Below, one piece after another: positions 2,475 to 22,017 of a stretch of DNA of 27,710 nucleotides. This DNA comes from a virus. The position numbers were made by a program, and so were the translations under genes. How positions within the stretch are numbered: position 1 is the first letter of the stretch; each line of letters opens with the position of its first letter. The stretch is taken from positions 1 to 27,710 of IMG/VR virus record IMGVR_UViG_3300046010_008436. One strand, 5' to 3'. The notes below the pieces were generated by a model, which was not told the origin of the DNA, did no database searches, and saw only the letters and a program-made list of their open reading frames with translations.

Positions 2475-3656
2475 TTATAATTTAATTAAGGTATGATCAT
2501 ATGTTTCTAAACTATTAACTATGATAGTTAAATAATCGACATTAAACTCTCCTATATCATTTGTATCCGTTATTAGATCAGATATATTTTGTAATAAATA
2601 AAATGTCTGATCAGTAATTCTATTAGCATCAAACACTACTACAACGTCATTCTCACCTTCAGGATAATTGTTACCAATATATAAAACTCTTTTTTGTAAA
2701 TCATATGAAGTATTCGATTGCTCTATTTCTATATAATCATGCGCTCTACCATTATTAAGCATTTCATCTACATATATTCTATCACACCATGGTTCTAAAG
2801 CTGCTAATAAAGATAGATTACAATTTTTTACTACAAATGCAATATTTCGCTTATGAGGCACAATTGGCATCATTAAATTTGAATGCTTAACATTTGATCC
2901 CCATTTTCTAATAAAATCCTTTGTGGAATTGCTCATTTCTTTTTTCCAAGCTTCGTGTCTAGCTTCATCACCATCAAATGACCCTGCTCCCCGACCCGTT
3001 AAATGATATACTAAAGAATTCCATGGCTGAATGAATTCATATCCAGCTAAAAACATCCTATTAAATACATCTGAGTCTTCTCTACAAGATTTTAAAATTG
3101 GATCATGTCCTCCAATATGCATAAAATCTTTTTTATACATCATCCACGGAGCAAATACTCCATTAGTTATTTTTGTATCAGTTAACTGATTTTTTACATA
3201 CTCGTTAAATTCATCTTTCTTCCACTCCTCGGGCCAGATACCAAAATCAATTAGAATTTTTTCTCCGGCATTCGGATGTAATGGAGGTTCGATCCTAGTA
3301 GCGCACACTACGGTTTTTTCTTTTAAATGATTATATGCTTTGAGATCAGCATCAATACCTAACATCATATCAGCGTGAAATATCATAAAGATATCCGTAG
3401 TCGATTGTTCGACACAATAATCATATGCCTTTCCAATGCCGTATAATCGTTTTCCTAAGTCAGGATTAACAAAGTATTTTACATTATATTCATCTTTAAC
3501 TGAATCTAGCCAATCGACAGTGCCGTCTTCATCACTATCAACAAACACAATTATATCATGATCTTTTCTATAAGCATTTTCTCTTATAGAAGGTATACAT
3601 GTTTTAAGATATCGTAAGTTCGACTTACTAGGTATACAAAAAGTTATTTTATTCAT
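2475..3656 (-). CDS. Glycosyltransferase family 2 with extra C-terminal domain
   Basis: A GT-A fold sugar transferase of 393 residues. The N-terminal half shows the GT2 pattern: KITFCIPSK at the start, VFVDSDEDGT (about 38-47), and a DxD-like segment HADMML near 100-105 that would bind the NDP-sugar and metal. A GGHDPILKSCREDSDVF block follows, typical of GT2 proteins that see an Asp/Glu acid-base pair. The last ~110 residues look like a separate alpha/beta domain of unknown role. I chose ATG at 3656 because it gives only an 8-base overlap with the upstream gene and starts right at the conserved KITFC strand. The longer frame would need a TTG at 3677. It is clearly paralogous to the GT2 at 14957-15853. 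Confidence 0.88.
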   Translation of the reverse strand: MNKITFCIPSKSNLRYLKTCIPSIRENAYRKDHDIIVFVDSDEDGTVDWLDSVKDEYNVKYFVNPDLGKRLYGIGKAYDYCVEQSTTDIFMIFHADMMLGIDADLKAYNHLKEKTVVCATRIEPPLHPNAGEKILIDFGIWPEEWKKDEFNEYVKNQLTDTKITNGVFAPWMMYKKDFMHIGGHDPILKSCREDSDVFNRMFLAGYEFIQPWNSLVYHLTGRGAGSFDGDEARHEAWKKEMSNSTKDFIRKWGSNVKHSNLMMPIVPHKRNIAFVVKNCNLSLLAALEPWCDRIYVDEMLNNGRAHDYIEIEQSNTSYDLQKRVLYIGNNYPEGENDVVVVFDANRITDQTFYLLQNISDLITDTNDIGEFNVDYLTIIVNSLETYDHTLIKL

Positions 3657-4377
3657 TGTTATTAATATTAGATGCAATTAAGGTTTTAAATTTTGTAGTC
3701 GACCAATCATGGCTTCTATCGATATAATGTACGTTAATATCTAAGTCATCGCCCGTAAAAGATTTATTGATATAGTCACTTCCTTGAAATCGTATATCGT
3801 AATGATTGTTCGATAATAGCGTATATAAATCATTTTCAGTTTCATATACAATCACATCATCGACAAAACGTAATGATTTTAATGTATTAACACGATCATT
3901 TATAGATAGAATAGGTTTTATTTTTGAACTTCTTTCTATAGAAGGGTCTGAATGAAGAAGTACTGTTAAGTGAGTGCAATATTTACTTGTTTCTTGAAAC
4001 ATATGCACATAGCCTGGATGTATTACATCAAACGCGCCTGCAATTACTCCGAGAATTGAATTCTTTTTAAACGTGTCGACAGTTATATTTTTATCATCTA
4101 CAAAAATATCATATGAAGGTTTTCCTAAAATCAATTCATGATATTTTACATTCCACGAATCCAATTGATTCTTTGCATGGATATAATGAACGTTATAAAC
4201 TTTATGTATATCTCCATTATACTGTCCCATTCCTCGTGCAGTAAATATTTTAATGGTATGTCCCTCATTATATAATTGATTAATGGATTCGATTACATAA
4301 TAATCGGGAATAGAAGAATTATAATCTTTATTATTTGTAATACATATTGTATTATCTAAATCAAAACAGTATATCAT
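3649..4377 (-). CDS. Fused HAD phosphatase / sugar nucleotidyltransferase
   Basis: A 242-residue two-domain enzyme. Residues 1-100 are a HAD phosphatase like capsule proteins BcbF/EcbF: FDLDNT (5-10, with nucleophile D6 and D8), FTARGM (45-50), and K86 with VDD (93-95). Residues 108-235 are a cytidylyltransferase-fold domain, as in TagD or the C-terminal half of HldE: GAFDVIHPGY (114-123), SINDR (158-162) and the late STTKF (226-230). The usual HxGH reads HPGY, so its last histidine is tyrosine. Placed directly after a GmhA-like isomerase and HddA-like kinase, it could do the GmhB-like dephosphorylation and the nucleotidyl transfer of NDP-heptose synthesis. ATG at 4377 overlaps the upstream stop as ATGA, favouring it over ATG at 4410. 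Whether ATP, CTP or GTP is used is unknown. Confidence 0.87.
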   Translation of the reverse strand: MIYCFDLDNTICITNNKDYNSSIPDYYVIESINQLYNEGHTIKIFTARGMGQYNGDIHKVYNVHYIHAKNQLDSWNVKYHELILGKPSYDIFVDDKNITVDTFKKNSILGVIAGAFDVIHPGYVHMFQETSKYCTHLTVLLHSDPSIERSSKIKPILSINDRVNTLKSLRFVDDVIVYETENDLYTLLSNNHYDIRFQGSDYINKSFTGDDLDINVHYIDRSHDWSTTKFKTLIASNINNNE

Positions 4378-4874
4378 ATTATTGAGTGTAATATTAACTC
4401 GTGTATACATTCTACAATCCCATAGTCACTGCTATCAACATAAAAACTTAACAATGACTTCTCCGTAAAATTAATATTTAGTTTATTGGTATTTGAAAAC
4501 CCTGATAATATTATGATAGGAATATTATTTTCTATACAATATTGCGCCGCATTTAATATGTTAGCAGAGTTTCCTGAAGATGATATTAGTATAACTAATG
4601 TTTGCTCAGTCGTAAAATGCTCAATATATTTAGCGTACGCACTATCCCATCCATAATCATTTGCATAACAACTCATTCGTGCAGAATCTCCAAAACATAA
4701 CGCTCGCTTACCTAACGCTTTTGTATAATCTTCGGCAATATGACAACTGATTGCATTGCTGCCGCCATTGCCTAAGATTATAATATCATGATAGCTATCT
4801 ATGATAGACTTTAATTTATCTAAATCATCTTGCGATATTCTATCTAAACAATGTTTATACGTATTTAGTATCAT
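4374..4874 (-). CDS. gmhA: SIS-domain isomerase, GmhA-like (sedoheptulose 7-phosphate isomerase)
   Basis: A 166-residue single SIS domain. GmhA converts D-sedoheptulose 7-phosphate into D-glycero-D-manno-heptose 7-phosphate, the first step of nucleotide-heptose synthesis. Visible signatures are the phosphate-binding GNGGS (35-39), then HIAED with E48 in the place of the GmhA catalytic glutamate, the second phosphate loop ISSSGNS (97-103), and a C-terminal ECIHEL (155-160) with H158 in the place of the catalytic histidine. It is a little shorter than E. coli GmhA (192). It overlaps the kinase upstream by 20 bases and the phosphatase/nucleotidyltransferase downstream by 4, so the three are presumably made together. 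A different ketose-phosphate substrate cannot be excluded. Confidence 0.88.
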   Translation of the reverse strand: MILNTYKHCLDRISQDDLDKLKSIIDSYHDIIILGNGGSNAISCHIAEDYTKALGKRALCFGDSARMSCYANDYGWDSAYAKYIEHFTTEQTLVILISSSGNSANILNAAQYCIENNIPIIILSGFSNTNKLNINFTEKSLLSFYVDSSDYGIVECIHELILHSII

Positions 4875-5823
4875 ATAAGTTAGTTGTAGTTAATCCATTA
4901 TTGGATATATGAATTTTATTTACATTAATATATGAATTTCTTATGATAGATTCTTTATCTTTTTCAGTAAATATTAAAAAGTATCCGCCATTACCAGCTC
5001 CTAATAACTTATGCGATAGTACATTAGGATCGTTAATTAATTTATTATCTAAGTCGATTAATAATTCATTTTTGCAAATATATTTTGAAGTTTCTTTTTT
5101 ATTCGACCATGTTCTATTAATAACTGTATGGAATAGATTTAAATCTGACGTGTTAATTGCCGATTCTAAATCTTCTACATCTTTAAGTAATGGGACTGAC
5201 TTATCAATATCTAGGCTTTCTAATACCGTCGTTGAACTGCGTAGAACCCCTGTATATATAAGATACATATCTAGCTGATTAAATATATTAGCGCTCAGAT
5301 ACCTAATTTCTGGGTCTTGATTATTATAAAATCTAATCTTTTTCAATCCACCCATCGAGCCATAAAAGTCTTGTTGACCGACTAATGGATTAAACGTTTT
5401 TTCAATCTTTTCAGCTAATTTACATACTTCAAATTCTGTAATATGTTCATTTCTTAATGCGTATATCGATTTAATTAAAGCTAATAAATATGCCGATGAA
5501 GAAGCTAATCCAGACCCTGCAGAAAATACATCTGAGGTCATAAAACAATTAAGATGTTCTACATTAAGATAGTCAAAACAGTTACGTACTAACTCATTTT
5601 CAATATCATATATATTATATACCGATTCTCTTTTAGAATAGTTAATAATATATTTCTTATCTAATGAAGTTGCTCCAAATATGTCTTGATGTAAAGTAAT
5701 ATACGTATGTAAGTTAGAAGCAAAACTAATTACGGCCCCAGCTCCATATTTTGATAAAAATTTAGGATGATCTGTAGAGCCTCCTACAAGAGATATTCTT
5801 AAAGGGCAAGCAGTTATTATCAT
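4855..5823 (-). CDS. hddA: GHMP kinase, HddA-like (heptose 7-phosphate kinase)
   Basis: A 322-residue GHMP-family sugar kinase. HddA phosphorylates D-glycero-alpha-D-manno-heptose 7-phosphate at C1 using ATP, feeding GDP-heptose synthesis. The N-terminal PLRISLVGGSTDHP (7-20) is the characteristic opening of HddA-type kinases (PLRISFxGGGTD). The ATP-binding GHMP loop SAGSGLASSSA (101-111) and the third GHMP motif LLGAGNGGYF near 275-285 are both intact. Length is normal for the family. It starts with an ATGA overlap on the preceding glycosyltransferase-like gene and is followed by the GmhA-like gene. Fucokinase-type proteins share the fold, but the GmhA neighbour makes the heptose role the best reading. 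Confidence 0.88.
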   Translation of the reverse strand: MIITACPLRISLVGGSTDHPKFLSKYGAGAVISFASNLHTYITLHQDIFGATSLDKKYIINYSKRESVYNIYDIENELVRNCFDYLNVEHLNCFMTSDVFSAGSGLASSSAYLLALIKSIYALRNEHITEFEVCKLAEKIEKTFNPLVGQQDFYGSMGGLKKIRFYNNQDPEIRYLSANIFNQLDMYLIYTGVLRSSTTVLESLDIDKSVPLLKDVEDLESAINTSDLNLFHTVINRTWSNKKETSKYICKNELLIDLDNKLINDPNVLSHKLLGAGNGGYFLIFTEKDKESIIRNSYINVNKIHISNNGLTTTNLYDTKYV

Positions 5824-7643: not shown

Positions 7644-8798
7644 TTAGTTAGTTATAATATCATTAATGACCGTAATCATCAAATCCAATTCTTCTTTAGT
7701 TAGATCAGGATTATTTGGAATATACAATCCAAACTTATCAACGATATCACAATTTTTTAATATTTTTTGTCCATACTTACTTGTATAGAATGGCTGGCTA
7801 CCCATACTGCCACATACTAATGGCCTTACTTCAACTAAGTTATTTTTTAACGCTTCAACAATTTTATCGCGCTTTGGATGAATAATAGGATAACAGAAGT
7901 TAGATGTAAATGTACCATCAATTGGCACGGGCTTCCAAAAATCATTTTTAATATTTTCTTGTAAGTATATGAAATTTTTGTTTCGCTTTTTACAAATATC
8001 ATCTAGTTTATCTAATTGGCCTAATCCGATATAAGCTTGCAGATCTGTCGCTCTCACATTAAATCCATCATAGTAAAAAGTATATAACGAATTAAAGTCA
8101 GTTACGTTATGCTTTTTACGTAGCTCTTGCTGTACCGACGGGGATAGATCTCTATCCCATCCATGACTTCTAATACTCAATAAAATATTATATAACTCGT
8201 CATCATTTGTAGCTATAATTCCTCCTTCAATCGTTGAAATATGATGCCCGAAGTATGTTGAATATGAAGACATAGTACCAAAGTTTCCTAATTTAATGCC
8301 GTTGTATTCACTCCCTAAAGATTCGCAATTATCTTCTAATAAAATAACATCATATTGGTCACATAATGATTTTATTTTTTCCATATCTGGCACAAATCCT
8401 AATATCGATACCAACATTAATACGCTCGGAGCTTCAGTTTTAAAAATATGTTCTAGCTCATTATAATCTATAGATAGCGTATCTAAATTAACATCGCACA
8501 AGATTGGCTGTAACCCGAATTGCATTACAGGAGATAAATCAGTTGCCCAGCAAAGCCCCGGAACTACAATTTTATCATTTTTTAATTTTTTGCTTGATAT
8601 TAATGCATATAACATAAGCAAATTTGCTGAGGATCCTGAATTTACAAATACTGTATATTTAGTGCCTAGCCACTTTGCCCATTTAGATTCAAATTCTAGA
8701 GTTACTGGGCCTTTTGTTAGGCGAGGATATGTTGATAGCCATTCAATCAATTTATCTATATCTGCCTTGTTAATTGTATCATTTACTAATGAAATCAT
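7644..8798 (-). CDS. colD: DegT-fold PLP enzyme with Lys-to-His swap, ColD-like 3-dehydratase
   Basis: A 384-residue DegT/DnrJ/EryC1/StrS-family protein. In ordinary sugar aminotransferases of this fold a lysine binds PLP. Here the equivalent position in YFGHHISTIEGG is H185, exactly as in ColD, which removes the C3 hydroxyl of GDP-4-keto-6-deoxy-D-mannose instead of transaminating C4. Other ColD-like landmarks are NSGSSANL (53-60), LLEDNCESLGS (153-163, with the PLP-pyridine Asp156), GFNVRATDLQAYIGLGQL and the late VEVRPLVCGSM. The length matches ColD (about 388). GDP-mannose 4,6-dehydratase, which makes the ColD substrate, is encoded 5.2 kb upstream in the same gene run. It could also act on a related 4-keto sugar. 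That it is a dehydratase rather than an aminotransferase follows from the histidine. Confidence 0.88.
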   Translation of the reverse strand: MISLVNDTINKADIDKLIEWLSTYPRLTKGPVTLEFESKWAKWLGTKYTVFVNSGSSANLLMLYALISSKKLKNDKIVVPGLCWATDLSPVMQFGLQPILCDVNLDTLSIDYNELEHIFKTEAPSVLMLVSILGFVPDMEKIKSLCDQYDVILLEDNCESLGSEYNGIKLGNFGTMSSYSTYFGHHISTIEGGIIATNDDELYNILLSIRSHGWDRDLSPSVQQELRKKHNVTDFNSLYTFYYDGFNVRATDLQAYIGLGQLDKLDDICKKRNKNFIYLQENIKNDFWKPVPIDGTFTSNFCYPIIHPKRDKIVEALKNNLVEVRPLVCGSMGSQPFYTSKYGQKILKNCDIVDKFGLYIPNNPDLTKEELDLMITVINDIITN

Positions 8799-8809
8799 AA
8801 TATGTATTT

Positions 8810-9553
8810 TTAAAATTTGATGTAATTATATTGTTCAGCCTTCATACGTTGCTCTAAAAATTTATCCCAAAGTCCTTTACTTTGAAAGTACTGAACCATT
8901 TCTTGTTCAGCTAATTGATTATATTTAGAAATAATGGGATCATGCGAATTTTCTTTAACCGTGCCATTTCCAAAATGAATTACTGGAATCCAATCGCACA
9001 CTCCTACTTTCCAATTATTATCTTGGCATATAATACCTGTCATATGATCTTGTACCCAACCGAATTTAGATCCAAATGCTTGCACATGCTCGACAAATAC
9101 ACGTTTTAATAAAACACATTGATAATCGACCCATGGAACATATCGAATTACTTTACTGCCCCAGTTATGATTCATTTTCCAATGGCATTGATCTTTTTCA
9201 GGCTGAAATACACATCCTGATACAGCAACTAGCTCATCATCTGCAAATAGCTCATCTCGCAATGATTTAATAAAATTATATCCGTGAACTATCAAATCTG
9301 AATTTAATAGTATCATAGAATCATATTCAGTATTTTCAATAAAATAATTCATCGTAACATCTAATCCACCTCCATAATATACATTTTCATCTAATCTAAA
9401 TGTAGTATACTTTGATTGTTTATTTGGATCCGATCCGTTATCAATAACTATTAAATCATAGTCATTTCGTTCATATGGTTTAAGAAACTCATATAATGTA
9501 TCAGTATACTTAACAGTATTATAATGTAGTATAGCAACTAAACTCTTACTCAT
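8810..9553 (-). CDS. Glycosyltransferase family 2-like protein
   Basis: A 247-residue GT2-type protein. It starts MSKSLVAILHYN, followed by IVIDNGSD (35-42), the nucleotide-binding acidic loop, and YYGGGLDVTMNYF (59-71). The segment MILLNSDLIV (80-89), an NSD in place of DxD, matches rhamnosyltransferase-like GT2 enzymes that use the same layout. The C-terminal half carries FGWVQDHMTG and VIHFGNGTVKENS, as expected for the acceptor side. It lacks a membrane segment. It sits 11 bases upstream of the ColD-like gene and 6 bases after the next transferase, so it is probably in one operon. Donor sugar unknown. Confidence 0.83.
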   Translation of the reverse strand: MSKSLVAILHYNTVKYTDTLYEFLKPYERNDYDLIVIDNGSDPNKQSKYTTFRLDENVYYGGGLDVTMNYFIENTEYDSMILLNSDLIVHGYNFIKSLRDELFADDELVAVSGCVFQPEKDQCHWKMNHNWGSKVIRYVPWVDYQCVLLKRVFVEHVQAFGSKFGWVQDHMTGIICQDNNWKVGVCDWIPVIHFGNGTVKENSHDPIISKYNQLAEQEMVQYFQSKGLWDKFLEQRMKAEQYNYIKF

Positions 9554-10836: not shown

Positions 10837-12066
10837 TTAAATAGTTTTTATTTCTGGTACTAATATAATAAACTTTCCTGAATATTCCAAATTTAAAGTC
10901 TGAATAATATAATCTGCAAAGTTATGTGCTAATATTAATATATAATCAGGAGGTGATTGTTTAAGTATATTACGATCGACTACTTGTATACCCGTACCTG
11001 GTATATACTTTCCTTGTTTTATATCAGTATCATCAATTATATAGTCGATAGTATTATAATCAATTCCCATAGCATTTAAGTATATACAGCCTTTTGCTGC
11101 GGCTCCAAACCCATAAATTACATTTCCTTGCTTCTTAAGATCTTGTAATAAATTTTTTGATTGAATAATATGATCTTGTACATTATTACCCCATGCTATA
11201 TGATAATTGAGATTATATTGTTTTTCCATATTAATATACTCTTCGACAGTGCTATCAACTTCATGATTAGAATTTTTCTTTGATATTATTAGTCGTAATG
11301 TACCTCCATGTATGTTTTGTTTTGTCACGTTAATAATATGAAGTCCGTGCAATTCCATTAACCGTTTTAATGGAGTTACTGAATGATAATACATATGTTC
11401 ATGATATATCTGGTCAAATTGATTCGTTTGCATATCATGTATCCAATATGGAAATTCTAATACCCAAATGCCATTTTCGGTTAATAGATGTTCAACCCCA
11501 TCGGCAAATGAATTAATATCTTTAAGATGCTGAAATACATTTGTTGAAGTAATTACATCAGCTTTAATATTTGTTTTATTACGGGCAACATCTAAACTAA
11601 AAAATTCAACTAAAACGGGCACTCCTTTTTTAATACTTATTTCTGTTAAATTCTTCGAAGGATCTATGTTTAACACTTGTATATCCTTTTCCGTTTGTGT
11701 TTTAAATGTATGAAGTAATGTTCCATCATTACCTCCTATATCTATAATGTTAGTACCATCTTGAATATCAATATACTTTTGTATATACTGAAACATCTCT
11801 TTACAATGTTGTATATACGGTTTATTAATTTCAGTTTTAAATAGATAGTGACTAAATAATAATTCACTATCGACTGCAAAATCTAATGAAGATAGTCCCG
11901 AAGCTGGATAGTAATTTATATTAAGTGGAAAGCGTTCTGCCTTTAAAGATTCCTCACGTGTAGCACATAAATTATTAACTAATGGTATATTACCTAAATT
12001 AAAATATTTGATTTGCTCGTTATGATTTGTTATCGGACATTCTTTAATCGATGAGTGATTGTTCAT
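10837..12066 (-). CDS. Sugar C-methyltransferase-like protein (TylCIII/TcaB9 type)
   Basis: A 409-residue class I methyltransferase of the family that C-methylates 4-keto NDP-sugars. Domains in order are a shortened Methyltransf_13-like N-terminus (10-60, with the typical LGNIPLVNN), a SAM fold with DIGGNDG (109-115) and a C-terminal Methyltransf_14-like domain with GFGAAAKGC. The catalytic signature YHEH (221-224) and HGGTLR (253-258) are intact. The N-terminal zinc site is not: the family normally has four Cys, whereas I see only C10 and C34 here. It overlaps the RmlD-like gene by 23 bases. Next to GMD and a ColD-like enzyme it could add a branch methyl to a deoxy sugar. Many cluster homologues are unproven, so the reaction is an inference. 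Confidence 0.82.
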   Translation of the reverse strand: MNNHSSIKECPITNHNEQIKYFNLGNIPLVNNLCATREESLKAERFPLNINYYPASGLSSLDFAVDSELLFSHYLFKTEINKPYIQHCKEMFQYIQKYIDIQDGTNIIDIGGNDGTLLHTFKTQTEKDIQVLNIDPSKNLTEISIKKGVPVLVEFFSLDVARNKTNIKADVITSTNVFQHLKDINSFADGVEHLLTENGIWVLEFPYWIHDMQTNQFDQIYHEHMYYHSVTPLKRLMELHGLHIINVTKQNIHGGTLRLIISKKNSNHEVDSTVEEYINMEKQYNLNYHIAWGNNVQDHIIQSKNLLQDLKKQGNVIYGFGAAAKGCIYLNAMGIDYNTIDYIIDDTDIKQGKYIPGTGIQVVDRNILKQSPPDYILILAHNFADYIIQTLNLEYSGKFIILVPEIKTI

Positions 12067-12718
12067 ACTTGTTTAAATTTAAACTATAATTTTTATTATA
12101 ACGTAACTTATCTTTTTTAACTTTATTACGCTTTAAAGCATATTCATACATACTTTTCGGCTCAGTACCTATATTTAACGTGCCAGTTATATTTGATATT
12201 GATGCTTTATATATCATAGGAGCTATAACATCAACATAATCTTTACTTGTTATTAAATTATCCCATGCAAACTCATATGGAAATTGTTCACTGCCAAAGC
12301 TAGTACGTATAATTAAATGATTAGGAACTAAATTAACTGAGCATTCTCCTCCTAATTTTGTCCATGCATATTCATTGCTAGGAAATACAGAATCTATTTC
12401 AGTATAATTTCCAGTTAATCCTGGATATACATAATCTGTTGATATATACACTAAACGTTTATTGTTTTTAATACAGTATTGCGAGATATATGAAGTTCCA
12501 ATGATATTAGTTTGTATAATATCCGTTGCTATTTCACTATTATATTTTGTAATAGCTGCTGCGTGTATCAATGTATCAAAATCAATAGTATCTAATTTTG
12601 ATAATATACTATTACTATTAATATTATAATCTGCACTAGATAATACTTTAATTGAATCATCTATACATTGTAATTGAGTACTTAATAATCCGTTTTGGCC
12701 AGTAATTGCAATATTCAT
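12044..12718 (-). CDS. RmlD-like NAD(P)-dependent sugar reductase
   Basis: A 224-residue short-chain dehydrogenase related to dTDP-4-dehydrorhamnose reductase (RmlD). The cofactor loop reads TGQNGLLS (6-13), followed by HAAA (52-55), the diagnostic STDYVYPG (93-100) and YAWTK (117-121) with the catalytic Tyr and Lys. The C-terminal substrate domain is short: RmlD proteins are usually about 280-300 residues. It may therefore be a minimal reductase or have lost part of its pocket. With GMD and the ColD-like enzyme in the same operon, it is the best candidate for the final 4-keto reduction, the step ColC performs in colitose synthesis. Starts with an ATGA overlap on the upstream gene. Confidence 0.84.
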   Translation of the reverse strand: MNIAITGQNGLLSTQLQCIDDSIKVLSSADYNINSNSILSKLDTIDFDTLIHAAAITKYNSEIATDIIQTNIIGTSYISQYCIKNNKRLVYISTDYVYPGLTGNYTEIDSVFPSNEYAWTKLGGECSVNLVPNHLIIRTSFGSEQFPYEFAWDNLITSKDYVDVIAPMIYKASISNITGTLNIGTEPKSMYEYALKRNKVKKDKLRYNKNYSLNLNKYEQSLID

Positions 12719-13410
12719 ATTTCATTCCAATTAATAAGTGGCGCTACTGTAGGCAAATCTCCATGTGTCGAGTATGCTGGTATTGATGATAGTAATGTAG
12801 CTCCTGCGTTCCTCATATCAATCCACATTTCAAAATCGTGCGGATGAGTTGTTTTAGTATAATGCTTAATAGTATCTAAATGAACCTTTAAAAATTTAAC
12901 TTTTGCTGCGAATGTCATTGTAGTTGAATTAGTCAATTTCCAATGACATGATTTAGATAAATATACTCTTGTATATTCAGCACCACCTTCACAATATGGA
13001 TTACCTCCATTAAATGGGTCTAAATATTTATCTGGATGATCATATAATGTTGCAAAATCTGCTCCTAGATCAAATGCTTCCTTTAATACAATATCTGAAC
13101 CTATACGATGTAAATAATCATTTTCAACAAAATATATAATTTCATCGTCATTATATTTTAATGCCGCATCTAATGCTATATTAAATGTACCCGCTCCATG
13201 TCCAATTGATACTCGTTGTATTAAATCTTTACTAACATATTTACAGATCATTTCATAAGTTTCTTCACTAACATTGTCAGCTATAATATGAATATCATTA
13301 ATATGATTTTGGAATACTTTACAAAAATTACTCAAGCAATTTTCATTATTAATAATAGAAAGCTTTTGTTTCGGATATCCTGCATCTGAAATCCTATAAT
13401 ATATTTTCAT
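12715..13410 (-). CDS. Putative glycosyltransferase, GT-A-like
   Basis: A 231-residue protein beginning MKIYYRISDAGYPKQK. It has a GT-A-like arrangement: a first strand, a helix, IHIIADN (40-46), GHGAGTFNIALDAAL (70-84, a nucleotide-contact helix) and YFVENDYLH (93-101) in the DxD position. A late HPHDFEMW segment may be the metal-coordinating His/catalytic region. No membrane segment is visible. I placed the start at ATG 13410, seven bases after the methyltransferase stop. A longer frame would require TTG at 13416. Its stop overlaps the RmlD-like start as ATGA. I am fairly confident it is a sugar transferase, but not of the family number. Confidence 0.75.
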   Translation of the reverse strand: MKIYYRISDAGYPKQKLSIINNENCLSNFCKVFQNHINDIHIIADNVSEETYEMICKYVSKDLIQRVSIGHGAGTFNIALDAALKYNDDEIIYFVENDYLHRIGSDIVLKEAFDLGADFATLYDHPDKYLDPFNGGNPYCEGGAEYTRVYLSKSCHWKLTNSTTMTFAAKVKFLKVHLDTIKHYTKTTHPHDFEMWIDMRNAGATLLSSIPAYSTHGDLPTVAPLINWNEI

Positions 13411-13997: not shown

Positions 13998-14960
13998 TTA
14001 TTTTAATTTATTAATATCATTTAAAACCATAATTTCTACTAATTCTGAAAAACTGGTTTTTGGGTTCCATCCTAAATTAGTACTAGCTTTAGTATAATCT
14101 CCCTTTAAAACGTCAACTTCAGCGGGCCTCATGAATTTCGGATCTTGTTTAATATAAGGCTCCCAATTGGATATTCCTATAACTTTAAATGCCTCATCTA
14201 AAAATTCTCTAATAGATCTAGTTTCGTTAGTAGCGATTACATAATCATCAGGAGTGTCTTGTTGTAGCATTAGCCACATAGCTTCTACATAATCCGGAGC
14301 GTATCCCCAATCTCTTTTTGCATCTAAATTACCTAATGTAATATGGTCTGCTAATCCTAAATGAATTCTAGCTACGCCGTCTGATATTTTTCTAGTAACA
14401 AATTCTATACCTCTTCTTTCACTTTCGTGATTAAACAAAATGCCGCTACAAGCAAACATATCATATGACTCACGATAGTTTTTAGTTATCCAATGACCAT
14501 ATAATTTTGCTACTCCATAAGGACTTCTAGGATAAAATGGCGTAGACTCGCTAGCCGGATTTTCGACCATTCTACCAAACATTTCAGAACTAGATGCTTG
14601 ATAAAATTTAATTTTAGGATTATACTCTCTTATAGCTTCTAATATACGTAATACTCCTAAACCAGTAACTTCAGAAGTATGTTCAGGCGTTTGCCAACTT
14701 TGGCCTACAAATGACTGAGCGGCTAAGTTATAAACTTCATCTGGATTAGTTTCTTTAAGTAATCTAAGTAAACTATTTTGATCTGTTAAATCGCCATCTA
14801 CAAATGTAATTTTATCTTCTAAATGCGCTGTATTAGTACGTTGCTTAGATGAACTCCTACGTTCCATGCCATATACAGTATATCCTTTTGTTAATAAAAA
14901 ATCAGCTAAATGGCTACCATCCATACCATTTATGCCTGTAATTAATGCTGTCTTACTCAT
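13998..14960 (-). CDS. gmd: GDP-mannose 4,6-dehydratase
   Basis: A 320-residue extended SDR that converts GDP-D-mannose to GDP-4-keto-6-deoxy-D-mannose in the cytoplasm. The sequence shows ALITGINGMDGSHL (5-18) for NADP(H), GDLTD (56-60), the GMD-type NLAAQSFVG (78-86), ASSSEMFG (122-129), SPYGVAK (146-152, with Tyr148 and Lys152), and the family-specific LFNHESERRG (175-184) and LGNLDAKRDWGYAPDYVEAM region. All key residues are present and the length is near the lower end of normal (about 320-370). It overlaps the preceding GT2 gene as ATGA. The product is the ColD substrate and the ColD-like enzyme is in the same run, so the two likely form a pathway. GDP-mannose would come from the host. 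Confidence 0.96.
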   Translation of the reverse strand: MSKTALITGINGMDGSHLADFLLTKGYTVYGMERRSSSKQRTNTAHLEDKITFVDGDLTDQNSLLRLLKETNPDEVYNLAAQSFVGQSWQTPEHTSEVTGLGVLRILEAIREYNPKIKFYQASSSEMFGRMVENPASESTPFYPRSPYGVAKLYGHWITKNYRESYDMFACSGILFNHESERRGIEFVTRKISDGVARIHLGLADHITLGNLDAKRDWGYAPDYVEAMWLMLQQDTPDDYVIATNETRSIREFLDEAFKVIGISNWEPYIKQDPKFMRPAEVDVLKGDYTKASTNLGWNPKTSFSELVEIMVLNDINKLK

Positions 14961-15853
14961 AACTTTAATTTTATTGTATTAGATGACCCGTCAATTGGTA
15001 ACATTGGAATATAACAACCATTGTAATCTCTATCAGGAAATCTTCCATATTTTAATTTAAAGCGTTCTGCCGAACGCGTTTCATACGCTGCTAAATGTGC
15101 TGGCCTTGAATTGAAGTTATCATCAGGAAACCTACTAGTACGAGATGCAAAATGATATAATATTGATTTACTGGTAAGTACAAAATCATATCCTTCATTT
15201 AACATTCGAATAAAAATATCAGCATCTTCCCAATACATAGGCGCAAATTGATCATCATTGCCGCCTATATAGTCCCAATTTTCTTTAGATATAACTCCAC
15301 TAACTCCTTCAGGTTTTTTAATCTCAAAATTATTTAATTCTGAAAATTCTGCGGCCCATTCTAAAAATTCTTTACTATTAAAATTATTATATAATTCTCC
15401 AAAATAATTAGTTGGCACTTTTAATGTTCCTGGCCTGCTCTCTGGATCATTAAATATATTTGGCTCAATACGTTGACTAAATGCCCAAATTTTATCATTA
15501 GGTCTATTTTCGCATATATCTACTAATGCTTTATCCCAATTAGTAGCCATATAAAAATCAGAAGATAAAAATCCAATATATTTAGTTTTAACTTTATCGG
15601 CACAAAAATTCATTCCGCCGCCAATACCACGTGGAATTTCATTTTGCTCTATATAAATTTCTAAATTATATTTATCTTGATTACTTAATAACCATTCATT
15701 AGTACCATCTGTACAATTCTCAGCGTGTATAACAAATGGCGCATCTTTATAATAGCTATTATCTCTAACAGACTGTATGGCTAATTTTAAATAATTTAAT
15801 GTATTATATGTCGATAAACAAAATGTTATCTTAGATTGTTCCATAAAATTCAT
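14957..15853 (-). CDS. Glycosyltransferase family 2
   Basis: A 298-residue GT2 enzyme. The order of blocks is KITFCLSTYN (8-17), NCTDGTNEWL (46-55), IGFLSSDFYM (93-102) as the DxD-like site, RIEPN, GVSGVISKENWDYIGGND, and the acidic YWEDADIFIRMLNEGYDF block that includes the probable acid/base residues. It shares this block order with the larger GT2 at 2475-3656, so the two are paralogues. ATG at 15853 overlaps the upstream gene by 23 bases; ATG at 15844 (three residues in) is a possible alternative. It couples to the GMD gene by an ATGA overlap. It is soluble-looking, and its donor and acceptor are unknown. Confidence 0.87.
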   Translation of the reverse strand: MNFMEQSKITFCLSTYNTLNYLKLAIQSVRDNSYYKDAPFVIHAENCTDGTNEWLLSNQDKYNLEIYIEQNEIPRGIGGGMNFCADKVKTKYIGFLSSDFYMATNWDKALVDICENRPNDKIWAFSQRIEPNIFNDPESRPGTLKVPTNYFGELYNNFNSKEFLEWAAEFSELNNFEIKKPEGVSGVISKENWDYIGGNDDQFAPMYWEDADIFIRMLNEGYDFVLTSKSILYHFASRTSRFPDDNFNSRPAHLAAYETRSAERFKLKYGRFPDRDYNGCYIPMLPIDGSSNTIKLKL

Positions 15854-16457
15854 TTTGCAATTCTTGTTTCGAAATATCTTTTACATGATGCAAGCATAAA
15901 TCTTCTTCGTCTGCCGGTATACTAGATATGATATCCCAACCCGAAGGTCTTTCATGAACTGCTCCGATCCATTTAATTTTAGGACTTCGTTTATAAATTC
16001 GAAGTTGATAATCAGGCCAATTAATTCTATTTTTATCATCTTTAGACCATCCCCATTTTTGAATATGATCATCAGTAATGCCGTTAACAATATTTGCTCT
16101 AGGAACTGCAATACAATCGACATTTCTATTAATAGCAATAATCTCAGGTAGTATATCAATTAATGCTGCATCAGGCATTTCATCTGCATCAATATTGAAT
16201 ATCCATTCATTACTACATTGCTCTGTTAAGAAGTTTTTCTGAGAAGCAAAGTCTTTATTTAACTCTCGTTTAAAAAGTTTAATATGACGCATAGATTCAT
16301 GCTCTTCTAAAATAGCTTTAGTAATTGGATCTGTAGAATAATCATCTACCACAACAATCTCATCATGATCTTGTTTATTCTCTATAATGAAGGAGATTAA
16401 TTTTTCAATACATTCTCCTTCATTATGAGTCATTATAGCATAGCTAATATTAGGCAT
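15831..16457 (-). CDS. Glycosyltransferase family 2, WaaE/KdtX-like
   Basis: A 208-residue compact GT2 domain. It starts MPNISYAIMTHNEGECI, followed by EIVVVDDYSTD (33-43), the KDFASQKNFL block (68-77) and FNIDADEMPD (87-96), where DAD is the metal/nucleotide site. This arrangement with N-E-ASQKN and DADE is characteristic of the lipopolysaccharide-core glucosyltransferase WaaE/KdtX group. A late WIGAVHERP is also typical, and in that group it usually faces the acceptor. It is a little short for the family (about 250). It overlaps the upstream GT4 by 8 bases. In the island it may add the first or a branching hexose, but this is inference. Confidence 0.88.
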   Translation of the reverse strand: MPNISYAIMTHNEGECIEKLISFIIENKQDHDEIVVVDDYSTDPITKAILEEHESMRHIKLFKRELNKDFASQKNFLTEQCSNEWIFNIDADEMPDAALIDILPEIIAINRNVDCIAVPRANIVNGITDDHIQKWGWSKDDKNRINWPDYQLRIYKRSPKIKWIGAVHERPSGWDIISSIPADEEDLCLHHVKDISKQELQNEFYGTI

Positions 16458-17805
16458 CTTCTACTTTTTTAAGTTGAGTCAAATCAATTTTCTTTAACTT
16501 AGGTAAATCAATTTTTTTAACGTTTTCATTTTCTGCCTTTTTCAATTTAGGCAATTGAAGTTCAACTTTCTTTGGTATTTTATCAACCCATGGTGTAATT
16601 AAACTATCTAACGTTTCTTGCATTTTAGATAAAGAAAAATTATCTTTAATATGCTTTGTTGTTTTTCGAGACTTTTCTAAATAATTTTTATAATTCTTAA
16701 ATATATCTCGCATAATACCAATCACGTATCCTTGCTCTACCGACCACCAACTTGCTTCAGTTAATATAACTTTATCCCAAGCTGCTGAAGGATGTACATT
16801 AGTTAACTGCCCAGGTACTAAGAAACTTGTATCTTTATCTAAAAAATCTAAATGACCAGACCAATTAGAAGCGATAACAGGCTTACCTGTAATAGCAGCT
16901 TCTATTAATGGACGACCGAATCCTTCTCCTTTAGTTAAAGACACGTGAACTTTTACTTTAGGATGATTATACAAATCATTCATCTCAGCATCAGTTAAGT
17001 CTCCATGAATTACATATATATTAGGTAATACTTTTGTATCAACAGTTTTTTTAATAATGTCAATTTTATTCTGCAATTGATCTCTGTCGACAATGCTAGG
17101 TTTACCGCCTGAAGTCTTAAGTATTAATGCCGGAGCGTTTGTTTTATTTTTAAATGACTCTAAAAATAACTTAATCGTTAACGCTACATTTTTTCTGTCT
17201 TCTCCGAACTGGCCAGGCAACCAATGTCCTACGAATAAAAATGCAAAGTCTTCTTTAACTTGAGACATTATGTCTTTAACTGTATCTGAACTAGTTTCAG
17301 AATCTTTGTTAAAAACATCTAAATTTAAGCCTTCAAAAAGAACTTCAATTGGTCTTTCACATTTCAAATGCCCTATTGGCTGATTTGTTCTAGAGTCACG
17401 TTTTTCATATGAAGCTGCTTCAAAAACATCTTTAGCATGTTTCGAAGACACTAATACTAAATCCATTTTATTTATACCTTCGATCCATTCTGGACTACAT
17501 AATGTAGTTTCAATGCCAGCAGTAACTCCTATATTAAGTTTACCTACCCGCTGAAACTCATTCGGAACTGTTACTTGCATATATATATCAGGTTGTTGAT
17601 TCAACGACCCCATTAGCATTCTACTAATGATATCCTGATCCTCATTACTTAATGCATTCATAGGAGTATCACCCCAACGAGTTGATACAATTTTAATATC
17701 ATATTTTTCAGTAGCAATTAACGCTCTTACTAAATCTCTACTACGCTCACCATATCCACTACGTGTAGCAATGGGAGCTTGAAATACCAATAATGGTTTA
17801 CTCAT
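16450..17805 (-). CDS. Glycosyltransferase family 4 with C-terminal LPKLKK repeats
   Basis: A 451-residue GT-B enzyme. The N-terminal domain holds RSGYGERSRD (15-24), an acceptor-side glycine loop, and the C-terminal domain has FVGHWLPGQFGEDRKN (191-206) and the donor-binding SLTKGEGFGRPLIEAAITG (289-307), with E294 and E302 forming the E-x7-E motif of GT4 retaining enzymes. The tail from about 413 is unusual: it contains three short copies of a lysine-rich unit, QLPKLKKAE (417-425), DLPKLKKID (433-441) and DLTQLKKVE (441-449). The same unit begins the adjacent GT4 at 17809-19233. No membrane segment is visible. The gene lies 3 bases after that GT4, consistent with stoichiometric expression. 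Substrate unknown. Confidence 0.9.
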   Translation of the reverse strand: MSKPLLVFQAPIATRSGYGERSRDLVRALIATEKYDIKIVSTRWGDTPMNALSNEDQDIISRMLMGSLNQQPDIYMQVTVPNEFQRVGKLNIGVTAGIETTLCSPEWIEGINKMDLVLVSSKHAKDVFEAASYEKRDSRTNQPIGHLKCERPIEVLFEGLNLDVFNKDSETSSDTVKDIMSQVKEDFAFLFVGHWLPGQFGEDRKNVALTIKLFLESFKNKTNAPALILKTSGGKPSIVDRDQLQNKIDIIKKTVDTKVLPNIYVIHGDLTDAEMNDLYNHPKVKVHVSLTKGEGFGRPLIEAAITGKPVIASNWSGHLDFLDKDTSFLVPGQLTNVHPSAAWDKVILTEASWWSVEQGYVIGIMRDIFKNYKNYLEKSRKTTKHIKDNFSLSKMQETLDSLITPWVDKIPKKVELQLPKLKKAENENVKKIDLPKLKKIDLTQLKKVEDA

Positions 17806-17808
17806 AAC

Positions 17809-19233
17809 TTAAATTTTAATCAATTCAACTTTAACTCTTGGACTCCAATTTGCAAATGCAGTATTCATATCTTTAACAAATCGCTCACCCATTGACTCTG
17901 CACTCAATCCTGTTTCTTTAGACAACATCCATTCTCTGCCAGCTTTACCTCTTCGCTTTCTTTCTACACGATCTCTATCATACCAAGTTTTAAGTGCTAC
18001 TGCACAATCTCTGAAGTCGGCAATATCATCAAATATATATGGAGTAGGAGGAGACCCTTGTAATGTTCTTACTGCCGGGAATACTGGCTCAACCCATTCG
18101 CCATGTGTTGTGTATCGTTTAACTGAATTAGTTTGAAATTCATCATTATAATCATATTCAGTTAAGTATTTTCCAGAATCGTCTTTAAATCCACATTGAT
18201 CTTGCATACCGCCAGTCACATTAACTACTATAGGAGTACCTGTCATTACAGATTCTGCAGTACCTAATCCAAATCCTTCATTAGAAGCAATGTTAGCAGT
18301 AATATCTGAAATATTATATAAGTAATTTAACTCTTTAGTTGTTATAATTCGATTACTTGTAAATTTAACTTTATACGGGCACAACTCATTAATTACTGCT
18401 GGTAGATCCGTGCCATTATCATCTACTTGCTCTGTATGCATTAACAACAAACATTTGTCAGCCTTTTCTTTAGATAAAGTGTCGCAAAACTCTTTAAATC
18501 CTAAAATTAAATCCGACGTATGCTTTCTTCTAATATTACGAGCATTATAAAATGTAATAAAATCAATATCATCCCCGACTAACTCTTTACGGAAATTCTG
18601 CAATTCATTCCATTCAGGATGAGTCTCGTCAATTGGATAGAAGCTATTTTGATTAATACCGTGCGGTACATAAGTAACTTGCCAATCTTCATGTTTAGTA
18701 TTTTTAAGTACCTGCTTAACAATATTATATGTCTGTTTAGATATACACATCAACAAATCACAAGACTCGTAAAATGGCTTATTCCATCTAGGATAAGGGA
18801 CGTCATCCCAAATAGTGTAATAAAATAATGGCATTAATTGTCTTAATTCATGTTCCATTCCATAAAGCCAGCCCCAAAATCTAGGATCTGTAAAGTGCAG
18901 TACTGCGTCTGGCTTTTCAATATTAATAATCTCTCTTAATACTTCTGGATTACCGTATCCGCTAAATGGATATAATTTTAAGTATGCATCTTCTACTCCC
19001 GTCTGCTGCGCAGTGTCGTGGCATAAATCTAATACCTTACCTTGATCTGGATGCTGAACGGCAGCTGCTAATTGTACCCAGTCAAACTCTTTACAAGTTT
19101 GCATTACAATTTCGCGTGACATCGTTGCAATACCAGAATGCATACGTAAATCATCAGAAAGTAATAAGATTTTCTTTTTCTTTGGCTTGTTAGGATCAAC
19201 CTTACGAAGCTTTGGCAATTGTATTTGCGTCAT
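17809..19233 (-). CDS. Glycosyltransferase family 4
   Basis: A 474-residue GT-B fold glycosyltransferase and the first gene of the sugar island. The N-terminus carries a basic tag, QLPKLRKVD (5-13) followed by a run of lysines, and then the first Rossmann strand KILLLSDDLRMHSGIAT (21-37). Later blocks are VTYVPHGIN (187-194), the inter-domain start of the second Rossmann domain, FITFYNARNIRRKH, and ANIASNEGFGLGTAESVMTG (313-332) with E319 and E327 as the E-x7-E donor motif. TGTPIVVNVTGGMQDQCG follows, as in GT4. A 55-base A/T-rich gap with a possible promoter element precedes it. The shared LPKL tag with the next enzyme hints at a complex. Donor sugar unknown. Confidence 0.9.
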   Translation of the reverse strand: MTQIQLPKLRKVDPNKPKKKKILLLSDDLRMHSGIATMSREIVMQTCKEFDWVQLAAAVQHPDQGKVLDLCHDTAQQTGVEDAYLKLYPFSGYGNPEVLREIINIEKPDAVLHFTDPRFWGWLYGMEHELRQLMPLFYYTIWDDVPYPRWNKPFYESCDLLMCISKQTYNIVKQVLKNTKHEDWQVTYVPHGINQNSFYPIDETHPEWNELQNFRKELVGDDIDFITFYNARNIRRKHTSDLILGFKEFCDTLSKEKADKCLLLMHTEQVDDNGTDLPAVINELCPYKVKFTSNRIITTKELNYLYNISDITANIASNEGFGLGTAESVMTGTPIVVNVTGGMQDQCGFKDDSGKYLTEYDYNDEFQTNSVKRYTTHGEWVEPVFPAVRTLQGSPPTPYIFDDIADFRDCAVALKTWYDRDRVERKRRGKAGREWMLSKETGLSAESMGERFVKDMNTAFANWSPRVKVELIKI

Positions 19234-19438: not shown

Positions 19439-19623
19439 TTACTTTTAAAGATTAATTTATCTATATTCCAAAATATTAATGCACCTACAAACTGAAATCC
19501 TATAATGGTCCAAAAGTTGGACCATCCTAATACATCATGCATCAACCACATACATGGCCATGATACAACTATACCTAATTGCCATTTAGCGTGATATAAC
19601 AAGTATTGTTTAAGATTTTTCAT
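19435..19623 (-). CDS. Small membrane protein, two predicted TM segments, 62 aa
   Basis: A 62-residue protein from ATG at 19623 to TGA at 19435. Residues about 14-31 (WQLGIVVSWPCMWLMHDV) and 35-55 (NFWTIIGFQFVGALIFWNIDK) are hydrophobic and separated by a short loop. This predicts a two-pass inner-membrane protein with a basic N-terminus and a C-terminal KLIFKSK. The pattern WP.M plus N.IG.QF.GALIFWNID is one I associate with unnamed small membrane proteins of large T4-like phages. It overlaps the upstream SLOG-like gene by 14 bases and the downstream zinc protein by 4. A holin is possible from size alone, but nothing else supports it. Confidence 0.8.
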   Translation of the reverse strand: MKNLKQYLLYHAKWQLGIVVSWPCMWLMHDVLGWSNFWTIIGFQFVGALIFWNIDKLIFKSK

Positions 19624-20068
19624 TTACTATTACTACTGGTTTATTATGTTTTTGCGCCATACTAACTGCGTGTTGCGATCCTTTAGATGTTGATGTGCTG
19701 TCAATAAAGGCAATCATATTATCGCAATACCTAGCTATCAACTCATTTCTATGAAAGAATTGAGATGTGTGATAAGGCTTACTGTAATAGTGTTCATTCA
19801 TTGCTGAATATAAATTTTTAACCGTGTGAGCAGGATTAAACTCTTTGTATTTAACTCCTAACTCTAGAGCGTACTTCTTTGCATATTTATCTGCTCCTGC
19901 CGGAGCTCCCCCTGATACAATTTCCAATTTATCTCCAAACGTTTGTTTGAGTTTAAAAATCATATCACGTATCTTTCTTTTGTTTTCGTAGATTCTGCTT
20001 CCTACTATAGCAACTTTCATTAACTCAGGATCAGATTTTAATCTACTCATTATTTGGAATTTATTCAT
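19610..20068 (-). CDS. SLOG/YspA-like nucleotide-binding protein
   Basis: A 152-residue Rossmann-like protein of the SLOG superfamily (YspA, DUF2493-like). The first strand and loop read MKVAIVGSRIY (17-27). The diagnostic GGAPAGADKYA (53-63), which in SLOG proteins holds a nucleotide-derived ligand, is intact. RNELIARYCDNMIAF (107-121) and STSKGSQHA (126-134) complete the family layout. Such proteins are thought to bind or process nucleotide ligands, and some occur in phage defence and counter-defence contexts. The phage protein has no fused effector. Start is ATG at 20068, overlapping the nuclease stop as ATGA; a later in-frame ATG at 20020 matches the bare family start. Biological role unknown. 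Confidence 0.82.
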   Translation of the reverse strand: MNKFQIMSRLKSDPELMKVAIVGSRIYENKRKIRDMIFKLKQTFGDKLEIVSGGAPAGADKYAKKYALELGVKYKEFNPAHTVKNLYSAMNEHYYSKPYHTSQFFHRNELIARYCDNMIAFIDSTSTSKGSQHAVSMAQKHNKPVVIVNEKS

Positions 20069-21015
20069 TTAATTCTATTTGCTTTTGGGCACAATTCTTC
20101 TTTATCTGCAAATTCACAATACTTACAATTCTTCAATCCTTTATCTCCTATTGCAGGATACTCAGCAGTTGTGTTATAACTCCCATCAGGGTTGAAACAG
20201 GTAGACACAAAATTATCAATTTCAGCGCTTAACTTTTTTCTAGTTATGCGACCTGAAGCTGGGGCAAATTCTTGCACACGCTTTTGTGGATACATGAATC
20301 CTTCAATCAACTTTCGCTTAACAATGAAATATTGTACGTCAATCTTATCTTCGTCAAACCCATATTGTTTTGCAAAATATGATTTATATAAAACTAACTG
20401 AGAAGTCTTAATCTTATCTGCCTTAGCATATTGATTCCAACCTTTCGTGCTAGTTTTAATATCTATAATAATTATCCTATCTTCTACCGTATCACGCAGT
20501 ACTAAATCAATAAAACCATTCATATATACATGCTCATTAGCTTCAGATGCCTGAACATATAAAGGCATTTCAATGCCTACTAACTCATAACCTTTATTAG
20601 TAAAATAGTCAGCTCTACGTTTCTTAACCCAATCTAAAATTGCAACCCCATCTTCATAAAATTCTTGAAGCTGAGTTGCATTAGAAAAATGTTCATGATT
20701 GTTATCAATAACTGACATCATATAATTCTGAGTCATTTGCTCTTGCAAACACTCAGCCAAATTCAATTTGTCAGCTGCCTTAATTGATTCGCGATACATT
20801 GTATTCAAATACCATTGTAGCACTTCATGGAATGAAGTACCGAATACAGTATGAATGGATGGACCGCCGAACCGAGTACGGTCAATATAATTGAGTTTCC
20901 ATTTATGTGGACATGAACTCCACATAGCGAACTGACTATATGAAATAGTCTTATGATCCGGATTCTTTTCAGGAGCAACTGCTCTAAATAACTGACCTAA
21001 CGCACTTAATGCCAT
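20065..21015 (-). CDS. PD-(D/E)XK nuclease, Cas4/RecB-like with Fe-S cysteines
   Basis: A 316-residue exonuclease-type protein of the PDDEXK_1 group. The core reads GFIDLVLRD (167-175, D170) then IIIIDIKTSTKGW (181-193), with D185 and K187 as the D-x-K, then QLVLYKSYF (206-214) matching the QxxxY of RecB-family nucleases, with H63 in FGTSFHEVLQ. One cysteine (C35, in SSCPHKW) and three near the C-terminus (C297, C300, C309, in CKYCEF...CP) have the spacing of the 4Fe-4S site of Cas4 and AddB. In phages such proteins are thought to process DNA ends for recombination or replication. A Cas4-like name does not imply CRISPR, and no array is present here. It starts 47 bases after DUF3310, the widest gap in this module. 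Confidence 0.88.
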   Translation of the reverse strand: MALSALGQLFRAVAPEKNPDHKTISYSQFAMWSSCPHKWKLNYIDRTRFGGPSIHTVFGTSFHEVLQWYLNTMYRESIKAADKLNLAECLQEQMTQNYMMSVIDNNHEHFSNATQLQEFYEDGVAILDWVKKRRADYFTNKGYELVGIEMPLYVQASEANEHVYMNGFIDLVLRDTVEDRIIIIDIKTSTKGWNQYAKADKIKTSQLVLYKSYFAKQYGFDEDKIDVQYFIVKRKLIEGFMYPQKRVQEFAPASGRITRKKLSAEIDNFVSTCFNPDGSYNTTAEYPAIGDKGLKNCKYCEFADKEELCPKANRIK

Positions 21016-21032
21016 ACTATAATTAATTTTCT

Positions 21033-21062
21033 ATAATATAAGAAAACCAATTGTATGTTCAA
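21033..21062 (-). promoter_or_regulatory. Candidate sigma70-like promoter before the nuclease gene
   Basis: On the minus strand TTGAAC (21057-21062) and TATTAT (21033-21038) are 18 bases apart in the gap between the DUF3310 and nuclease genes. The -10 box is 5 of 6 to the consensus and the -35 box 4 of 6. The gap is otherwise AT-rich, so this could be a chance match. It would drive the nuclease, SLOG and downstream genes. Confidence 0.28.
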
Positions 21063-21335
21063 TTATTTCTTTTGGATTTGTTCAGCTCTTCTTTTGAGAT
21101 ACCAAATGGCTTTGTTAAGATCTTCTAATTCTTTTGAAGCGTCTTTTTTGCCGGCACGAGAGATATACTTAACAGCATTGCCTAAACAAAAATCTAGATC
21201 CCAGGCTTCGATTACTTTGATAGCTTCATACACATTATTTTCTCCGCCATAATGAGCCGGATGGTTAACGGTCTCATTATGAGGTGCAGTTTTACCTCTG
21301 CCTGGTTGTACGTGATATATTAATTCTTGTTCCAT
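21063..21335 (-). CDS. DUF3310 family phage protein
   Basis: A 90-residue protein that carries the full DUF3310 signature: VNHPAHYGG (23-31), YEAIKVIEAW (36-45), FCLGNAVKYISRAGKK (49-64), and LEDLNKAIWYLKRR (71-84). The family is widespread in phages of many hosts and is often annotated as a nucleotide-kinase-like or SaV-like protein, though its biochemical role is not established. The position between the clamp-loader small subunit and the nuclease fits a link to DNA or nucleotide metabolism. It begins with ATG at 21335, five bases upstream of nothing but the 62-like stop at 21341. No membrane segment. Confidence 0.93.
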   Translation of the reverse strand: MEQELIYHVQPGRGKTAPHNETVNHPAHYGGENNVYEAIKVIEAWDLDFCLGNAVKYISRAGKKDASKELEDLNKAIWYLKRRAEQIQKK

Positions 21336-21340
21336 ATGGA

Positions 21341-21787
21341 TTATTTATTTTTTAAAAGTTTATCTACCTCTTTATCTGTTTTACCGTATTTTTTCACTAT
21401 TTCCTTTAACGATAACAGTCTATCTCCAGTATACAATTCTAAGTATTCCACAGCTTCCTTCTCTGAAATTAAGAAGTGCTTTGACAGTAATTCCACCAAC
21501 TCAGGACTGTATTTAGATTCTTTGCTACCTTTAACATACTTATTATAAGTCTTTTGCTTCGGAAGAATGTCTAAGTATAATTTATAAACTTCTTCTGGAG
21601 ATAACAAACCTATAGTATATTTTTGCAATTCATTTACTAAATCAACCCAATCCATATTCATAGATAACCATCTGTTAATCATATACGGAGTGAATGACTT
21701 TTTATCTTCATCACTCAGTTTACTCCAAGCAGTTTTCTTATCTGTAATATTAGATAAATGATCGAATATGGTAGCTGCTTTACTCAT
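21341..21787 (-). CDS. 62: Clamp loader small subunit, gp62-like
   Basis: A 148-residue helical protein corresponding to T4 gene 62, the subunit that pairs with gp44 to open the sliding clamp. The block WSKLSDEDKKSF (21-32) followed by PYMINRWLSM (34-43) is the best landmark: a similar PF-x-VNR-x-LS core marks gp62-like subunits of marine T4-like phages. LPKQKTYNKYVK near 75-86 is a second family-like segment. The T4 subunit is longer (187). I chose the ATG at 21787 because it overlaps the zinc-ribbon gene by 8 bases and starts just before the first family helix. The longer frame to 21853 adds 22 residues that match nothing I recognise. Gene order 45-44-62 supports the call. Confidence 0.82.
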   Translation of the reverse strand: MSKAATIFDHLSNITDKKTAWSKLSDEDKKSFTPYMINRWLSMNMDWVDLVNELQKYTIGLLSPEEVYKLYLDILPKQKTYNKYVKGSKESKYSPELVELLSKHFLISEKEAVEYLELYTGDRLLSLKEIVKKYGKTDKEVDKLLKNK

Positions 21788-22016
21788 TTGGAATGTCAAA
21801 TTCTGCATTAATGTTTCCGCACGCAGTACACATAAACACTTGAATTGGAACAATTTGATCGTCTTTAGCTCCTGTCAATAGTTTGCTAATCTTCTTAAAT
21901 TTCATAGCCGGCATAAACATATCATTCTCGCATCCTTCAGCATCGCATACAATAGATTTAGCTTTTGACAAATTAATCTTTTGTCCTTGTTGTCCTTGTT
22001 GTCCTTGTTTAATCAT
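21780..22016 (-). CDS. Zinc-ribbon protein with GQQ repeats, 78 aa
   Basis: A 78-residue protein. After the opening MIKQGQQGQQGQKINL comes a two-knuckle zinc pattern, C24 and C29 (CDAEGC), then C63 and C66 (CTAC). The middle (MKFKKISKLLTG, 38-49) looks basic and amphipathic. The Gly-Gln-Gln unit is encoded by a 9-base tandem repeat. The gene sits between 44 and 62 with overlaps and a one-base gap, so it is tightly linked to the clamp loader. Similar small ribbons are seen in large phages, but I cannot give a function. It might bridge the loader or DNA. Confidence 0.78.
   Translation of the reverse strand: MIKQGQQGQQGQKINLSKAKSIVCDAEGCENDMFMPAMKFKKISKLLTGAKDDQIVPIQVFMCTACGNINAEFDIPNE
21981..22007 (-). 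repeat. Three perfect copies of a 9-base tandem repeat
   Basis: The plus strand reads TTGTCCTTG three times in a row. Because the unit is a multiple of three, it lies in frame in the zinc-ribbon gene and encodes a Gln-Gly-Gln tail just after its start. Such short in-frame repeats can change length by slippage without a frameshift. Confidence 0.85.
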
Positions 22017-22017
22017 C

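Follow-up and report, generated by a model that had tools for sequence, protein, structure and literature searches.

The gene at positions 7644–8798 (minus strand) of the window, the whole 27,710-base virus sequence analyzed here, belongs to a tailed phage and very probably encodes a ColD-type 3-dehydratase, with GDP-4-keto-6-deoxymannose as the predicted substrate. The open reading frame has exactly these bounds and yields a 384-residue protein, predicted to be a PLP-dependent NDP-4-keto-6-deoxysugar 3-dehydratase; its strand had been left unstated in the original prediction. The proposal made there, that the protein would catalyze dehydration and not transamination, is supported, as to the type of reaction, by the ranking of solved structures, the residue H185, the missing iron-sulfur cysteines, the tree and the gene context. 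Collectively, the residue exchange, the top rank of ColD, the position in the tree, the invariance of H185 and the linkage to GDP-mannose 4,6-dehydratase (GMD) and Fcl genes provide good support for the dehydratase reading. The enzyme itself belongs to a known family; the less expected part is the viral clade around it, which is common, coherent in its GMD and Fcl neighbors, and filed as aminotransferases.

At the position of the Schiff-base lysine the protein carries a histidine, H185 (codon 8244–8246, minus strand), which is followed by H186 within the segment YFGHHISTIEGG. The exchange of lysine for histidine was borne out by alignment to ColD and PerA, in which H185 falls opposite the catalytic H188 of ColD and the lysine of E. 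coli O157 PerA. The changed letter (N or K) of the ColD variant chains 3b8x and 2r0t likewise aligns with the first of the two histidines, H185. The reference ColD, ColC, Gmd, Fcl, and PerA proteins were taken from two E. coli O-antigen regions. H185 is kept in each of the 157 full-length viral relatives, and the residue after it varies (H in 141, T in 11, and I in 5). Because the first profile scan included the HH motif and biased the histidine count, the scan was repeated with C-terminal patterns. Since 76 of the 157 relatives were retrieved with these patterns only, avoiding the HH motif, the count is not a product of the search, and the exchange at H185 is not due to chance. Two further segments had been described as the same in ColD; they are similar to it and not identical. 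The GFNVR segment (residues 245–249; 8052–8066, minus strand), with N247 and R249 invariant in the 157 viral relatives, reads GYNVR in ColD, and the VRPLVCGS segment (residues 324–331; 7806–7829, minus strand), with R325 invariant, reads CRPIVTGN.

The protein belongs to the DegT/DnrJ/EryC1/StrS fold family based on its Pfam match (PF01041, 3.2e-61). The best solved structure was ColD (E 5.3e-63), followed by further ColD entries, H188N and H188K among them, and after these, in turn, by E1/RfbH (1e-45) and the lysine-type perosamine synthase (7e-32). The nearest known system is thus ColD (WbdK), the GDP-4-keto-6-deoxy-D-mannose 3-dehydratase of E. coli O55 (PDB 2GMS/3GR9/3B8X), which shares with the window protein the catalytic histidine, the G-Y/F-NVR and RP..xG segments, the length, the lack of an Fe-S site and a GMD partner. 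Unlike E. coli ColD, to which it is 33.5% identical (30.1% to E1 and 27.0% to PerA), the window protein is encoded in a phage genome, in a fragment without a ColC homologue. Among the four Fe-S cysteines of E1, only the equivalent of C193 is kept, as it is in ColD, and C251, C253, and C261 (chain numbering) are replaced by R, L, and L, respectively. In the NCBIfam scan the best model was RfbH with 227 bits, below its cut-off of 423, and no ColD model was matched.

A single-protein scan of viral contigs returned only one relative, and two alignment-based scans returned several hundred (at least 584 in one and 520 in the other). Among the matches listed, the best viral relatives are 51–69% identical to the window protein, compared with 44–51% for the best bacterial ones. 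A quick tree with SH-aLRT supports and without bootstraps, which took in E. coli ColD, E1 and lysine-type enzymes, separates the histidine-type from the lysine-type enzymes (99%) and the ColD-type from the E1-type enzymes (98%). The window protein lies inside the ColD/RfbH histidine clade, whose membership the original prediction had made decisive, on the ColD side and within a 36-row group that contains 34 other viral sequences and one bacterial sequence (99%). E. coli ColD is a long, basal branch of the ColD clade. To our knowledge, no member of the viral ColD clade has been assayed. A bacterial ColD-like protein from a Blastocatellia MAG (L097, a 4.6 kb contig) was found inside the viral clade and may come from a mis-binned phage or prophage.

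The window carries T4-like replication genes, including clamp loader subunits at 22018–22947 and 21341–21853, and is therefore a fragment of a tailed phage, an origin that had gone unmentioned. A phage GroEL gene (24183–25799, 538 aa) adjoins the replication genes. The 418-residue protein encoded at 25802–27058 has no match in Pfam or PHROG and recalls, as an unsupported impression by eye, tRNA-guanine transglycosylase/DpdA proteins. The genes from 19233 down to 1595 all lie on the minus strand with gaps of −37 to +26 bases, and this run looks like one or a few sugar-gene operons. It contains, together with the dehydratase gene, the expected supplier of its substrate, a GDP-mannose 4,6-dehydratase (13998–14960; TIGR01472, 428.2 bits against a cut-off of 415) that is 54% identical to the colanic-acid Gmd of E. 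coli. A short RmlD-like SDR (12044–12718; PF04321, 5e-22, and RmlD structures) is a candidate C4-ketoreductase. The NDP-sugar C-methyltransferase at 10837–12066 (PF08484, 5e-35; D-mycarose 3-C-methyltransferase 4rv9, 1.3e-55) may branch a 4-keto sugar and is putatively linked to the ColD-type enzyme. A glycosyltransferase-like protein (8810–9553, a weak GT2 match) adjoins the dehydratase gene, and four glycosyltransferase-type genes (14957–19233) continue the run. A separate heptose cassette includes an HddA-like heptose 7-phosphate kinase (4855–5823; NF049969, 7e-21, below the cut-off) and an extended SDR of the epimerase/dehydratase kind (1595–2473), whose homologue lies beside hddA in the viral locus L009. 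The run also encodes a GmhA-like sedoheptulose 7-phosphate isomerase (4374–4874; Pfam and NCBIfam) and a HAD phosphatase fused to an HldE/RfaE domain-II-like nucleotidyltransferase (3649–4410; TIGR02199, 5e-17; TIGR01689, 2e-15; phrog_7878). The HAD part of this fusion is capsule-phosphatase-like, and the same fusion occurs at L009:14484-15569, where by eye it extends into an apparent cupin of the mannose-6-phosphate isomerase kind.

Neighbor genes were counted within 5 kb on either side of the gene in dereplicated viral loci. GMD is present in 53 of the 70 ColD loci and an Fcl/ColC-type SDR in 47, with both in 40. The corresponding counts are 2, 0, and 0 of the 25 loci of lysine-type phage homologues, and 0, 1, and 0 of the 22 E1-like phage loci (Fisher p <1e-6 in every comparison, both for GMD and for the SDR, a value that overstates independence since the loci are related by descent). 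The Fcl/ColC-type SDRs near viral ColD genes keep the S/T-C-Y-K-H catalytic residues save for one C-to-V change; 65 score nearer Fcl and 9 nearer ColC, by differences that are small in many pairs and do not sort them. In L178, the closest relative among the matches listed, the ColD is 69% identical to that of the window, a GMD 79% identical to the window GMD lies 0.9 kb from it, and the Fcl/ColC-type gene lies 7.4 kb away. In L009 the ColD gene sits between Fcl and GMD. A methyltransferase of the same kind as the window's C-methyltransferase was found near ColD in six dereplicated viral ColD loci.

In the published mechanism, the histidine is the acid/base by which the C3 hydroxyl is expelled, and the PMP of ColD is regenerated by glutamate (PMC8987622). 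We infer the chemistry of the window enzyme from ColD. Host GDP-mannose would be converted to GDP-4-keto-6-deoxymannose by the phage 4,6-dehydratase (13998–14960), a source of substrate suggested by the gene linkage. In its pyridoxamine phosphate form, reached via transamination from glutamate, the ColD-type enzyme would form a ketimine at C4 of the sugar; H185 would then remove the cofactor proton and the C3 hydroxyl would leave. The enamine would be released and hydrolyzed to GDP-4-keto-3,6-dideoxymannose, with the PLP recharged by glutamate. A reductase, which like the final acceptor is a putative element of the route, may then yield a 3,6-dideoxyhexose for the many glycosyltransferases of the phage.

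Speaking against the ColD reading are the 33.5% identity to ColD, the long branch of E. coli ColD and the lack of an Fcl/ColC-type gene in the fragment, which ends at 27.7 kb. DegT family membership would also fit an aminotransferase using PLP, which despite its histidine would produce GDP-perosamine or a different amino sugar, and the histidine-type SpnQ does transaminate without its reductase (PMC8987622). An aminotransferase is nevertheless highly improbable here: the protein has no Schiff-base lysine, transamination by E1 needed the H220K variant and was not catalytic (PMC8987622), and the lysine-type homologues form a separate clade, found in phages mostly without GMD neighbors. The NCBIfam result would favor a dehydratase of the E1/RfbH type, whose substrate would be CDP-4-keto-6-deoxyglucose and which would rely on an iron-sulfur cluster and a reductase. 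The CDP-4-keto-6-deoxyglucose 3-dehydrases E1, RfbH, and AscC indeed share with the window protein the histidine in place of lysine and the C3 dehydration, but differ in their [2Fe-2S] cysteine set, reductase partner and CDP-sugar. This identification was rejected based on the missing cysteines and the tree, and its probability is negligible: three of the four cysteines are missing whereas the true E1-like phage clade, separate in the tree, keeps them, and the neighbor genes belong to GDP-sugar rather than CDP-sugar pathways.

The ColD-type 3-dehydratase reading leaves a choice between a hexose and a heptose substrate. In the heptose case, GmhA, HddA and the nucleotidyltransferase would supply GDP-heptose; the GMD homologue would dehydrate this at C4/C6 and the ColD-type enzyme would convert it to a 3,6-dideoxyheptose, the route known from C. 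jejuni HS:5. The gmhA- and hddA-like genes do share the gene run, and the C3-dehydratases of C. jejuni, 62–67% identical to E. coli ColD, use GDP-6-deoxy-4-keto-heptose (PMC10440746), so that the enzyme sequence alone does not discriminate between the two sugars. The HS:5/HS:11 enzyme resembles the window case in family, reaction and gmhA/hddA linkage, but its pathway differs in having HddC, a heptose substrate and a bacterial capsule locus (PMC10440746). Among the 70 dereplicated viral ColD loci, however, HddA occurs in 1 and GmhA in 4, against 53 with GMD, and the heptose genes of L009 form a separate block beside the homologue of the 1595–2473 SDR. The nucleotidyltransferase at 3649–4410 is HldE/RfaE-like, Pfam and NCBIfam scans of proteins from the gene run gave no HddC-type guanylyltransferase (the window is a fragment), and the window GMD homologue scores above the GDP-mannose dehydratase cut-off. 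The rare HddA/GmhA linkage, the separate L009 block, the HldE-like nucleotidyltransferase and the lack of an HddC-like gene make a hexose the more likely substrate and the heptose route improbable. Of the expected 3,6-dideoxyhexose, the 3,6-dideoxy part is supported, and the hexose part is likely, not proven.

The ColD-type enzyme probably helps the virus to make a rare 3,6-dideoxy sugar. L-colitose needs a ColC-type enzyme. There is no ColC/Fcl-type gene in the 27.7 kb fragment, nor a ColC-type gene in the stretches read of L012 and L020, which belong to the tree group of the window protein, and the product may be a 3,6-dideoxy sugar that is branched or has the D configuration. Speculatively, the 4-keto-3,6-dideoxy intermediate could be C-methylated by the MtmC-like neighbor and reduced by the short RmlD-like protein, not to colitose but to a branched 3,6-dideoxy sugar undescribed for phage, and the widespread viral clade could supply the phages' own 3,6-dideoxy sugars for virion or host-surface glycans; we regard this scenario as rather unlikely. 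Literature searches that combined colitose with phages or viral genomes returned nothing on point, with incomplete coverage that is not proof of absence.

The aminotransferase label anticipated for automatic annotation is indeed given by PHROGs ("aminotransferase", PHROG 3139) and by the DegT aminotransferase family of Pfam, and even the gene in the E. coli O55 colitose locus is annotated as "DegT/DnrJ/EryC1/StrS family aminotransferase". The Synechococcus phages S-CAM7 and ACG-2014f carry a trio of GMD, GDP-L-fucose synthetase and a histidine-type ColD-like protein, seen for S-CAM7 in the deposited annotation. These ColD-like proteins are 34–35% identical to the window protein, fall on a different branch of the clade, and are labeled "aminotransferase" or "putative CDP-4-keto-6-deoxy-D-glucose-3-dehydrase". 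Hundreds of genes of the viral clade are of the kind automatically labeled as aminotransferases. If they are read as 3-dehydratases, the expected product is no longer an amino sugar but a 3,6-dideoxy sugar; colitose, one such sugar, is immunodominant in enterobacterial O-antigens. Whether phages use 3,6-dideoxy sugars to remodel the surface glycans of their hosts or to adorn their own particles then becomes a directly testable question.

Histidine-type 3-dehydratases of an E1/RfbH-like kind form another large family in phages, matched in at least 511 viral contigs (for example L006:8821-10125, L007:8833-10128, and L003:19559-20860; further loci L334–L413), and the Fe-S cysteines are kept in the three E1-like phage examples that were aligned. 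HddA- and GmhA-like genes occur together in 12 of 80 E1-like phage loci (L356, L359, L361, L365, L366, L369, L371, L373, L374, L381, L384, and L387), which indicates that phage heptose genes accompany E1-like more than ColD-like enzymes. The 642 kb phage genome L003 has both types: the stretch 11071–13170 holds a ColD-type gene next to that of an Fcl-type SDR, and 19559–22266 holds an E1-type gene that adjoins the gene of an RmlD-like protein, which apparently runs on into a glycosyltransferase-like domain.
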